From the IMG/VR virus record IMGVR_UViG_3300023180_000394, positions 1 through 24,054 of that record: a stretch of 24,054 nucleotides of DNA. The stretch is one strand, 5' to 3'. A model generated the notes under the pieces. The model did no database searches. It was not told the origin of the DNA and saw nothing but the letters and a program-made list of their open reading frames with translations. Of this stretch, positions 6,816-23,826 are shown piece after piece (position 1 is the first letter of the stretch; every line of letters begins with the position of its first letter). The position numbers and the translations under genes were made by a program. The stretch is from a virus.

Positions 6816-7055
6816 ATGGGCGTTGTAGGAAAAGCTTTGAGAGGTTTTGGTAAGGCTCTCAAAAAAACAATGGACAGCAAAAAAACAGGAGACGTTTTAG
6901 AGGCTGGGGTTGTTACTTCTATACCCGCTGCTATGGTTGCAGGTGAAATTAAACATCGAAGAAAGAAAAAGAAAAAAGCAGAGGAAGGTCTAAAGAAGCT
7001 AAAAAATATAGTTCCTCACGTTGAATATATTAGATCAAAAAAGAAATCTAAGTAA
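6816..7055 (+). CDS. Small basic protein with short hydrophobic segment
   Basis: 79 residues beginning MGVVGKALRGFGKALKK, then a modest hydrophobic patch at about 30-43 (AGVVTSIPAAMVAGEI), then HRRKKKKK and a basic tail. It starts two bases after the 39-aa gene. The hydrophobic patch is short and weak for a membrane helix. The position in the lysis cluster makes a holin-like or membrane-associated role conceivable, but nothing proves it. The last 8 bases overlap the 3' end of the minus-strand helicase gene. Confidence 0.55.
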   Translation: MGVVGKALRGFGKALKKTMDSKKTGDVLEAGVVTSIPAAMVAGEIKHRRKKKKKAEEGLKKLKNIVPHVEYIRSKKKSK

Positions 7056-8529
7056 TCCAACTTTTCAATTCATCACCCATAACTTGACTGGCTATGTCAA
7101 CTTTGTTCTTCAAGGCAGTTAATATTTTCTCATCAACCGTTCCCTGGCAAACAAAGTCAACATAGGTAACTTTATTTTTCTGTCCAATTCTGTGTGCACG
7201 ATCTTCACTTTGTAATCTTATTTCAAGATCATAATTGTTTGAAAAGTACACAACAGTGTGACTGGCAGTAAGAGTGATTCCATATCCACCAGTCTTAGGA
7301 TTCGCAATAAGGTACGTGAGATCATGATTTTCATTCTGAAAATTCTTAACAAGTTCCAAGCGATCATCACTCGCAGTGTCGCCATAAAAAGCGTCAGCTT
7401 TTGTTTCACCATATTTTTCCTTTAGTTTTTTTGTGATAGTTTCGATGTTATGTCGATAGGTAGCCCAGATAATAACTTTACCATCAACTTCCTCTAAGAC
7501 ATCCAGCAATTCATCGTAACGTTTGTTAGGCACGTCGTGGATTTCACCTTGATCATTAATGGTGAACCCACAACATACCTGGTGCAACTTAACAATCTGT
7601 GAGAGCCGGTTCACAGATGTCGTTGTTTTGTCATTGAAAATAAACATTGCGTTTCTTCTCAATGATTCATAAGCTACAAGTTGTTTCTCACTCATAGGTA
7701 TGAACCTTTTCATATATATTTTTTCTGGTAAATCGACACATTCCTCTTTCTTCACCCGGAATGCAGCAGAGTAAATTTTTTCTTCTAATTCATCTAAACG
7801 TTGATAGCCTGTTATCAAAGGAAAGTGACGGCCACCAGAAGTTGGTCGATTAATAATCTTGGCATATCGTGCACGAAAAGCATAATAGTTTGACTGACCG
7901 AGTATCTTTGGATCAAGAAAAGCAAACTGTGTATAGATATCCAAAGGTGATTTAGTGACAGGTGTACCTGTTAGTATTCTTTTATAATTTATATCCTTTG
8001 CTAGTTTTATTAAGTTTTTTGTACGTTTAGCATTGTGTGTTTTGATGACTGTACTTTCATCAACAATCATCATTGTTTTTGTTTTATCTTGTACACTTAA
8101 ATATTTTTCTAAAAACTTTACACCTTTGGGTGACGAGATAGCTTCAATGTTCATCAAAAAAATATTCAATGGCACGACACTTTTTTCTAATAAATCTGTT
8201 AACTTCGCTTTCGTGACAGGATCTTTTAAACTAGGGTCCCACGTGCTAATTGCATATTTTGTTTTTTCAGGTGCAACAAATTCTATAATTTCTTTATACC
8301 AATTACGATACACGGACTTCGGTGCAAGAATTACACAGTTATCCACATCTTTATAATGATGCAAACCCATGAGATCCATGATTGCTGTAATAGTTTTACC
8401 TGTTCCCATCTCCATCAAATAGGCGAAATTGTTGATGTTTCGATCGTGACAAATTCGTTTTGCCTTTAGTTGATGAAGAAAAGGTTCCTTCAAAAAAAAG
8501 TTAGCCATATACAAAATAATATATTGCAT
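7048..8529 (-). CDS. SNF2/DEAD-like superfamily 2 helicase
   Basis: 493 residues with the SF2 motifs in order: Walker A MEMGTGKT (39-46), motif Ia LAPKSVYRNW (about 68-77), Walker B VDEST (156-160), motif III LTGTP (186-190) and the SNF2-type motif VI QSEDRAHRIGQ (440-450). This is an ATP-driven DNA translocase of the kind found beside phage replication genes, with roles in replication initiation, recombination or fork remodelling. It is short for SNF2 proteins and has no nuclease or extra domain. It is alone on the minus strand between two plus-strand operons. A second in-frame ATG at 8508 is an alternative start; neither ATG has a clear SD. Confidence 0.9.
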   Translation of the reverse strand: MQYIILYMANFFLKEPFLHQLKAKRICHDRNINNFAYLMEMGTGKTITAIMDLMGLHHYKDVDNCVILAPKSVYRNWYKEIIEFVAPEKTKYAISTWDPSLKDPVTKAKLTDLLEKSVVPLNIFLMNIEAISSPKGVKFLEKYLSVQDKTKTMMIVDESTVIKTHNAKRTKNLIKLAKDINYKRILTGTPVTKSPLDIYTQFAFLDPKILGQSNYYAFRARYAKIINRPTSGGRHFPLITGYQRLDELEEKIYSAAFRVKKEECVDLPEKIYMKRFIPMSEKQLVAYESLRRNAMFIFNDKTTTSVNRLSQIVKLHQVCCGFTINDQGEIHDVPNKRYDELLDVLEEVDGKVIIWATYRHNIETITKKLKEKYGETKADAFYGDTASDDRLELVKNFQNENHDLTYLIANPKTGGYGITLTASHTVVYFSNNYDLEIRLQSEDRAHRIGQKNKVTYVDFVCQGTVDEKILTALKNKVDIASQVMGDELKSWIT

Positions 8530-21501: not shown

Positions 21502-21776
21502 AGGTTCAGGTAGTTGCCGTAATGACTCGAGATCCTGAATCGTAGTGAGTGGCTGGTCTGCTGAAACAGGCAGAAAGCAGGATGAAGCGCACGGGACCAG
21601 ACCTGCACGCTCACACAAAGAGCATCTAAACACTGGCGACTGTGGGTGTACTGGGTCGCACTTGTTAGTCTTGTACACTCATTTGCTCTTACTAAAAGTG
21701 TAAGCCCAATCCCCGTAGAGGGTGGCGTGTGAAGTTTGGGATTGATGATCACGCACACTAAACAAAGGAGAAGAAG
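21502..21776 (+). ncRNA. Candidate structured non-coding RNA or long leader
   Basis: About 275 bases between a consensus promoter and the ATG at 21777, without a credible ORF. It has nested complementarity: GTGAG (21545)/CTCAC (21610) enclosing GGTCTG (21555)/CAGACC (21598); an 8-bp stem GGGTGTAC (21644-21651)/GTACACTC (21673-21680) with one wobble; and CAATCCC/GGGATTG close to the downstream gene. G+C is higher than in the replication genes. It could be a stand-alone small RNA or a regulatory leader for the genes from 21777. No known family was recognised and there is no internal terminator. Confidence 0.4.
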
Positions 21777-22700: not shown

Positions 22701-22707
22701 GAAAAAG

Positions 22708-22716
22708 TTATCCACA
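22708..22716 (+). promoter_or_regulatory. DnaA box, copy 1
   Basis: TTATCCACA, the high-affinity DnaA box, flanked by AAAGTT and AACTTT as an inverted repeat. It sits 18 bases upstream of the promoter at 22735. Confidence 0.6.
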
Positions 22717-22734
22717 ACTTTGTTTAATAACTAC

Positions 22735-22762
22735 TTGTAATTAGTTAGGATATGATTATATT
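22735..22762 (+). promoter_or_regulatory. Promoter of the 109-aa gene, repeat copy 1
   Basis: TTGTAA at 22735-22740, 16 bases, TATATT at 22757-22762. The spacer contains TTAGTTAGGATAT, shared with the promoter region at 23329. Confidence 0.5.
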
Positions 22763-22785
22763 AATAATAAGCCAAAGGAGGCAAC

Positions 22786-23115
22786 ATGAACAAAAAGAAA
22801 GAAATAGACAAGTTAGTTAGACTAACTATTCTAAATAACTTCATTAGTTCGAAGTTGAAAGAGCAAAAGACAATTGTTAAGTCTTTTGTCGGCGAGGAAA
22901 AAGTCCTCAAAGGTCTTGAACATAAAATGAATGTTATCAAGCGAGAATATAAAAAGTTTGATAGCGCTCGTTTCAAAGTCGAGCAACCTTTAATGTACAG
23001 TCAGTACAGAACTCAAATTGTTGAAAGCATTGAGTTGAAGCCGATTGTCGATCACGATCAAGAGAGCGAATTGCTAACAGAGAATTTCCCTCTGTTGCAA
23101 ATGCAAACTCAATAA
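22786..23115 (+). CDS. 109-aa basic helical protein
   Basis: A perfect SD (AAAGGAGG) before the ATG. The product (MNKKKEIDKLVRLTILNNFI..., ending ENFPLLQMQTQ) is mainly helical and basic, with 'YKKFDSARFKVEQPLMYSQY', a pattern I know from small marine phage proteins of unknown function in which an Arg/Lys- and Leu-rich segment precedes 'P.LY..Y'. It forms a single-gene unit with its own promoter, DnaA box and downstream hairpin. Confidence 0.6.
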   Translation: MNKKKEIDKLVRLTILNNFISSKLKEQKTIVKSFVGEEKVLKGLEHKMNVIKREYKKFDSARFKVEQPLMYSQYRTQIVESIELKPIVDHDQESELLTENFPLLQMQTQ

Positions 23116-23137
23116 TATTAGGCTAACTAAACATTTA

Positions 23138-23163
23138 GGTGCGAGGGTATTTGCCCTCGTGCC
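23138..23163 (+). terminator. 10-bp hairpin after the 109-aa gene
   Basis: GGTGCGAGGG (23138-23147) pairs with CCCTCGTGCC (23154-23163), including two wobble pairs, around a TATTTG loop. ATTCTCC follows rather than a full T run, so termination efficiency is uncertain. A CCATTCTCCATTTCCC repeat starts right after it. Confidence 0.55.
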
Positions 23164-23302
23164 ATTCTCCATTTCCCTGTTCCCCTTTAGCATCTTGCAC
23201 ATAGGAGTGATAGGGATTCCCGCCGGGCGGAAGTTGGTTGCATGATCTTCTTATAGAAGCCAATGATGATGTGGTCAAGGGTGCGACAGAATGGTACAAA
23301 AG
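23164..23302. repeat. Repeat-bearing gap between the two single-gene units
   Basis: Contains a CCATT-type repeat (23162-23185), TTCCCGCCGGGCGGAAG (near-palindrome, about 23217-23233) and GGAAGTTGGTTGCATG, which recalls GGAAGTTGCTGG at 21422. No ORF was found that I would defend. Confidence 0.4.
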
Positions 23303-23311
23303 TTATCCACA
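23303..23311 (+). promoter_or_regulatory. DnaA box, copy 2
   Basis: TTATCCACA again, preceded by AAAAG as in copy 1, and 17 bases upstream of the TTGCAA box. Boxes and promoters keep the same order and nearly the same spacing (37 versus 36 bases from box start to TTAGGATAT). Confidence 0.6.
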
Positions 23312-23328
23312 GAAAAGTTAATAAGTTC

Positions 23329-23358
23329 TTGCAACTAATTAGGATATATGAGATTATA
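23329..23358 (+). promoter_or_regulatory. Promoter-like repeat copy 2
   Basis: TTGCAA at 23329-23334, then CTAATTAGGATATATGA, then GATTATA. The -10 is ambiguous (GATTAT at 17 bases or ATTATA at 18). The ATG of the next gene is only 5-6 bases downstream of it, so a leaderless or near-leaderless mRNA is possible. Confidence 0.35.
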
Positions 23359-23362
23359 ACTC

Positions 23363-23611
23363 ATGCCTAATAATAACAACAGTCTTATCAATAGACCTTT
23401 TGCTAATTTGCAAGAGCGTCTTGATAACGTTCAAAGGCAGGAACGTTCTGATATAGACACAGTAGACAGAAGGGATATTTATCGTGCTATCGCTACTTAT
23501 CTTGATTCTGAAATTTATCATCTTATTGTTAATACTGATAACCCTGAAATAAAGGCATGGGGTAGACGTATTCTTGGTAAGATTGCAGAAATGCACAAGG
23601 ATATCTTATAA
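23363..23611 (+). CDS. 82-aa helical protein, second single-gene unit
   Basis: ATG 23363 with no SD at the normal distance. The product (MPNNNNSLINRPFANLQE, then RLDNVQRQERSDIDTVDRRD, ending AEMHKDIL) is charged and helical with 'AIATYLDSEIYHLIVNTDN'. Function unknown. It has its own promoter-like repeat and is followed by a strong terminator. Confidence 0.55.
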   Translation: MPNNNNSLINRPFANLQERLDNVQRQERSDIDTVDRRDIYRAIATYLDSEIYHLIVNTDNPEIKAWGRRILGKIAEMHKDIL

Positions 23612-23623
23612 GATAAACTTAGC

Positions 23624-23649
23624 GCTGGGGGTTTCTCCCCCAGCCTTTT
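23624..23649 (+). terminator. Rho-independent terminator
   Basis: GCTGGGGG (23624-23631), loop TTTCT, CCCCCAGC (23637-23644), then CTTTT. It closes the 82-aa gene unit. Confidence 0.75.
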
Positions 23650-23797: not shown

Positions 23798-23826
23798 TTG
23801 TAATTTACACAAATAATTACTATGAT
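23798..23826 (+). promoter_or_regulatory. Promoter of terL
   Basis: TTGTAA at 23798-23803, 17 bases, TATGAT at 23821-23826. Transcription would start about 6 bases before the terL ATG, leaving nearly no leader. Confidence 0.6.

Follow-up and report, generated by a model that had tools for sequence, protein, structure and literature searches.

The two modules between the terminase genes

The window, i.e. the whole stretch of DNA that was analysed, is an IMG/VR virus record of 24,054 bases. It encodes phage helicases, a primase, a family-A DNA polymerase and terminase. One helicase gene (7048-8529, - strand) lies on the strand opposite to nearly all other large genes. The source phage is aquatic, and its two predicted promoters each carry a perfect DnaA box upstream at a fixed place. 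Both of these modules are sited between the small terminase gene and the start of the large terminase gene. The box TTATCCACA is found at 22708-22716 and 23303-23311 on the + strand, with AAAG before each copy, exactly where the first-pass annotation had placed it. As also described there, TTAGGATAT starts 37 (module 1) and 36 bases (module 2) after the box start, within TTGTAATTAGTTAGG and TTGCAACTAATTAGG, respectively, and the modules face the same way with an open reading frame of 109 aa (22786-23115) or 82 aa (23363-23611) downstream on the same strand. The features of the locus are as follows.

22704-22716, +: DnaA box of module 1, AAAG-TTATCCACA; centre near -57 relative to the predicted start; identity of 100% across 48 distinct type-1 modules
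22735-22740, +: predicted -35 TTGTAA of module 1, 27 bp from the box start
22741-22753, +: spacer element TTAGTTAGGATAT of module 1, conserved in relatives
22757-22762, +: predicted -10 TATATT of module 1 after a 16-bp spacer; positions 22-26 conserved in type 1
22769-22785, +: 17-nt leader beginning at the predicted start (A at 22769) and containing the ribosome-binding site AAGCCAAAGGAGGCAAC
22786-23115, +: gene 1, conserved protein of 109 aa
23138-23163, +: strong terminator-like hairpin 3' of gene 1
23299-23311, +: DnaA box of module 2, AAAG-TTATCCACA; centre near -56; 100% identical in 32 distinct type-2 modules
23329-23334, +: predicted -35 TTGCAA of module 2, 26 bp from the box start
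23335-23347, +: spacer element CTAATTAGGATAT of module 2, conserved in relatives
23349-23357, +: predicted extended -10 TG-A-GATTAT of module 2 after a 17-bp spacer; variable among relatives
23363-23611, +: gene 2, 82 aa; ATG at the predicted transcription start, ribosome-binding site absent
23621-23646, +: terminator-like hairpin followed by CTTTT, 3' of gene 2

The earlier list of boxes was right about these two and incomplete, as exact boxes at 8339 and 20121 had been overlooked. The latter are internal to genes and have no other part of the module beside them; box and core occur together only twice in the whole window. Chance expectation was estimated from dinucleotide shuffles of the window (n = 400). 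The four exact boxes compare with a mean of 0.29 and a maximum of 3 in the shuffles, so that four were reached in none of the 400, and a box with TTGyAA at the module spacing did not occur in any of them.

The proteins of gene 1 and gene 2 gave no significant Pfam or PHROG match. Their AlphaFold models were weak (pLDDT 63 and 70), and a Foldseek search with the gene 2 model returned nothing at E 0.001. Two more conserved intergenic elements with complementary ends were observed at 21619-21689 and 21697-21759; their order is kept in relatives and they are possibly further RNA cassettes of the kind described in the last section. A conserved promoter without a box, TTGTAA-17-TATGAT, was seen before terL (23798-23826). 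The ATG follows 12 bases on, with no clear ribosome-binding site in front.

Predicted promoter anatomy and conservation in related phages

Related loci were collected from viral contigs, 77 with the 109-aa gene 1 and 10 with the 82-aa gene 2. Recurrence of the box and TTAGGA pair at fixed spacing in related phages, which the first-pass annotation had named as a check, was observed at 74 of the 76 gene-1 loci defined by protein similarity and with enough upstream DNA, where box and core lie within 250 bases upstream. At L009 and L010, the box is 264 bases away and thus beyond this limit because of an insert. A scan for the core only (TTGyAA..ArTTrGGA), in which no box was required, returned 134 distinct stretches. 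An exact box accompanied 131 of them, one had TTATCCCCA in otherwise normal surroundings and two were chance matches in a structural gene. In total, AAAG-TTATCCACA with TTG(C/T)AA..A(A/G)TTAGGA makes up about 130 distinct modules before two one-gene units in related aquatic phage contigs. AAAG and every letter of the 9-base box are the same in 100% of the distinct modules. By contrast, variation is seen at most positions from 9 to 26 after the start of the box. Records of 31-41 kb contain exactly two modules, one per gene. Among relatives of 11-41 kb, almost all cores have their box, and two modules are present where the record spans both; one unpaired core (G012) is a chance match in coding sequence.

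A scan of 84,980 bacterial and archaeal genomes found the module pattern three times. One match is a contig of the related phage type (L164, DDIC01000083.1) filed in a Bacteroidetes MAG, a filing that is not safe evidence of the host. The other two have no AAAG before the box and are probably chance matches. Conservation in relatives together with near-absence from bacterial genomes indicates that the box/core pair belongs to the phage group and is under strong selection. In one relative, gene 1 and module 2 have a tRNA-Cys gene between them (L039:3794-3867), which was not seen in the other relatives scanned.

The nearest cultured or named relatives are the HTVC023P/HTVC027P-type pelagiphages and phage DSL-LC04, with 47-54% identity in DNA polymerase and 61-67% in the large terminase. 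They have the same place between the small and large terminase genes. Gene 1 has a weak relative (E 2e-4) in gp27 of HTVC023P (L178:10937-11260), two genes before terL; no DnaA box is present in the region upstream of gp27 in this cultured pelagiphage. TTATCCACA and the module were absent from the 25-28 kb examined of four genomes of the pelagiphage/DSL-LC04 type.

Aligned on TTG, the consensus consists of AAAG-TTATCCACA, 17-19 bp, TTG(C/T)AA, 16 bp containing TTAGTTAGGAyAT, and an AT-rich hexamer. About six bases beyond the hexamer, a pyrimidine-A is conserved at position 34. The hexamer of module 1 is TATATT or TATATA. Module 2 has CATAAT, TATTAT, TAATAT, TATTTT or an extended TG-n-GATTAT, and its copy in the window is a weak -10. 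Sigma70 promoters are characterised by -35 and -10 hexamers 16-18 bp apart and a purine start about 7 bp downstream. The modules offer TTGyAA, a 16-bp spacer, a TATATT/TATWAT-like hexamer and YA fixed at position 34, and the prediction that both are sigma70-type promoters is well supported by this anatomy. The box-less terL promoter, which is kept in relatives, is consistent with TTGyAA as the -35. Position 34 is the A of the gene 2 ATG in 55 of 56 type-2 modules and no ribosome-binding site stands before it, so the mRNA of module 2 should be leaderless. In module 1 of the window, position 34 is the predicted start and falls on the first base of AAGCCAAAGGAGGCAAC-ATG.

Other assignments of the conserved parts were rejected. 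If TAGGAT were the -10, neither TTGyAA nor the AT-rich hexamer nor the fixed start would be explained. As a reversed DnaA box, TTAGGATAT has 6 of 9 matches, which are lost in the frequent GGACAT variant. A T7-like promoter found no support. The profile for a phage single-subunit RNA polymerase (PF00940) matched none of six phage records, but is uninformative as it also matched none of the controls.

The first-pass annotation had offered two readings of the modules, namely promoters through which the phage would time the genes by DnaA, or a duplicated origin-like element. The former appears well supported, as regards promoters acted on by host DnaA, by the anatomy and by the helical phasing given below; a role in timing would be a further possibility. 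According to the latter, the modules would be a duplicated replication-origin element made up of DnaA boxes and an AT-rich unwinding region, and indeed exact consensus boxes adjoin AT-rich DNA in two copies of the same direction. However, most genomes have a single box per module, with one or two at most and no cluster, and the mostly lone boxes are about 600-900 bp apart. Promoter elements and the start codon are found at fixed offsets, and RNA cassettes are inserted at the start site with the box-to-core spacing unchanged. The cumulative GC skew, followed in two records of about 40 kb and in the window, shows no turn at the modules, and the phage's own primase, helicase and polymerase genes are several kb away. 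An origin is thus highly improbable and was rejected because of the few boxes, the promoter geometry and the lack of a skew turn at the modules.

Box spacing and host DnaA as candidate activator

In the phage family, the distance from box start to TTG is 26-28, 18, 38-39 or 48 bp. The majority has 27-28 bp in module 1 and 26-27 bp in module 2. Three lineages depart from this, with a lone box at 18, boxes at 18 and 38/39, or boxes at 27 and 48; paired boxes in relatives have their starts 20-21 bp apart. All family boxes read toward the promoter and their positions are approximately one helical turn apart, which predicts an activator phased helically against RNA polymerase.

Viral contigs were further scanned for AGTTATCCACA, 8-34 bp, TTGACA, 16-18 bp and TANNNT, a canonical promoter pattern by which the family itself is left out. 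DnaA boxes with TTGACA promoters were detected in at least 120 contigs (L179-L298), compared to 4 with a scrambled box. Among the matches listed, 123 non-redundant cases showed peaks in the box-to-TTGACA distance at 17-19, 27-30 and 37-38 bp. A second scan covered gaps of 0-10 bp and found distances of 13-16 almost empty, followed by a sharp rise at 17-19. The on-phase bins, which were chosen after the histogram had been seen and with the family spacing of 18/27/38/48 known first, held 89 of 122 among the matches listed versus 45 expected. The resultant was maximal near 10.25 bp (R 0.57, n = 120, nominal p ~1e-17, among the matches listed), and as the nominal p comes partly from one dense peak, the three separate peaks and the count of 89/122 are the fairer statement. 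Reversed boxes were present in at least 120 contigs (L299-L410); among the matches listed, they preferred 23-26 bp with a weaker periodicity. Some of the genes downstream in the generic scan belong to HNH endonuclease, helicase-loader, O-like replication, ssDNA-binding, anti-restriction and HTH-regulator families, and one is a portal gene. BLAST of three generic-scan matches against cultured phages found none.

Sites at whole-helical-turn steps, as in class I-like promoters, are thus seen in the family (18/27/38/48) and in unrelated phages (18/28/38), and the phased distances fit a putative activator that shares a DNA face with RNA polymerase. Class I and class II promoters of the CRP type likewise have one upstream site, helical-turn positions and an activator on the polymerase side of the helix. 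CRP sites are centred at -41.5/-61.5/-71.5, whereas the activator here would be DnaA with predicted box centres generally near -49, -59 or -69 and near -57 in the family modules. The same phased arrangement in many unrelated phages suggests that phages commonly employ host DnaA as a switch for turning on genes. The literature searched contained no account of a phased DnaA-box promoter class in phages, which is weak evidence given its partial coverage.

Conserved anatomy, a fixed start, box invariance and helical phasing, the last both within the family and, independently, among unrelated phages, can be read directly from the sequences. From these, we infer DnaA as the binder, activation as its effect and any tie to the host replication state. 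A consensus DnaA box at a conserved promoter position, as found here, is what would be expected of a DnaA-regulated promoter. Each module is probably a sigma70-type phage promoter whose DnaA box serves as an upstream activator site for host DnaA. Host DnaA would occupy TTATCCACA, some 57 bp before the start, on a DNA face permitting contact with RNA polymerase, and this contact would help the polymerase to use the non-consensus -35 TTGyAA. Module 1 would then yield a short-leader mRNA for the 109-aa protein and module 2 a leaderless mRNA for the 82-aa protein, and each transcription unit would close with a hairpin. The related pelagiphage HTVC027P has no RNA polymerase of its own and uses the host polymerase throughout (PMC12753301).

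Alternatively, the 9-mer could be bound by a phage-encoded factor that shares it with DnaA, perhaps together with the TTAGGA element, since conservation in the family extends past the DnaA 9-mer to the AAAG flank and the spacer element. This is quite unlikely: unrelated phages have the same 9-mer and phasing with ordinary TTGACA promoters, and AAAG precedes the box in only 39% among the matches listed, which makes host DnaA the parsimonious common factor. The DNA-binding domain of DnaA was absent from six phage records, which may be incomplete, in a search in which the controls worked; this also speaks against a phage factor of that type and makes host DnaA the likely activator. Two features speak against the simplest form of the DnaA reading. 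The -10 of the window's module 2 is weak, and the spacer element TTAGTTAGGAyAT, which DnaA and sigma70 do not account for, suggests a second factor, possibly phage-coded, that may bind there.

Judged from the position of the box only, DnaA would activate rather than repress. Repression or switch-off by the recruited DnaA, or its titration from the host origin, has precedents: in E. coli, several promoters are repressed by DnaA (PMC8203912), and datA titrates the protein (PMC11317965). Both are unlikely here, as the boxes are upstream of the -35 and not over the -35/-10, at helical-turn steps, and neither phasing nor a fixed orientation is needed for titration or a roadblock.

Promoter regulation by host DnaA has known counterparts. 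DnaA boxes before sigma70-type promoters are found at the DnaA-regulated bacterial promoters of nrdAB, polA, purH, sda and gcrA. At ori-lambda/pR, the DnaA sites are located downstream of pR and not as a helix-phased single consensus box upstream. The present promoters, unlike those of lambda, drive small separate units. In both cases, host DnaA would act as a transcription activator on a phage template; at lambda's origin it does so via RNA polymerase beta, as cited in PMC8203912. The mechanism by which DnaA activates transcription is poorly understood (PMC11317965). As a counterpoint to the DnaA reading, the window modules carry lone boxes with a single exact box each, whereas in ChIP-seq of E. 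coli DnaA was found on pairs of boxes separated by 2-3 bp and was missing from several lone boxes of consensus sequence (PMC11317965). Boxes of the family are mostly single or have starts 20-21 bp apart, and no conserved candidate for a second weak box 2-3 bp from the first was seen by eye.

More tentatively, helix-phased DnaA boxes before sigma70 promoters might constitute a widespread phage class, in which the host initiator, and perhaps the replication state, sets the levels of small takeover or replication genes, with the family promoter also launching swappable RNA cassettes. If true, many phages would tie expression to an essential, conserved and cell-cycle-regulated host protein. A large natural collection of DnaA-box promoters that follow a clear spacing rule seems to be available in phages, which makes face, distance and orientation directly testable with simple reporters.

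RNA cassettes at the predicted transcription start of module 1

Structured RNA cassettes of about 50-110 nt are situated between module 1 and the ribosome-binding site of gene 1 in many relatives (L012:4930-5000, L009:4107-4309, L079, L063, L015, L044, L036, L068 and L069). They begin 61-65 bp after the box start, where transcription from module 1 is predicted to start. The types, of which there are at least a dozen, are interchangeable, and several are stacked in series. Rfam contained no family matching them. One type has a covarying terminal stem and, in seven variants, two stem pairs with changes on both sides. Many cassettes start with ATG, forming small leaderless ORFs that end in KPKEAT, and some are read in frame into the leader. 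Extra modules that drive cassettes only were observed upstream of the usual one at L029:3228, L068:3619, L069:4467 and L007 (about 3217), the last with the decayed box TTATCCCCA.
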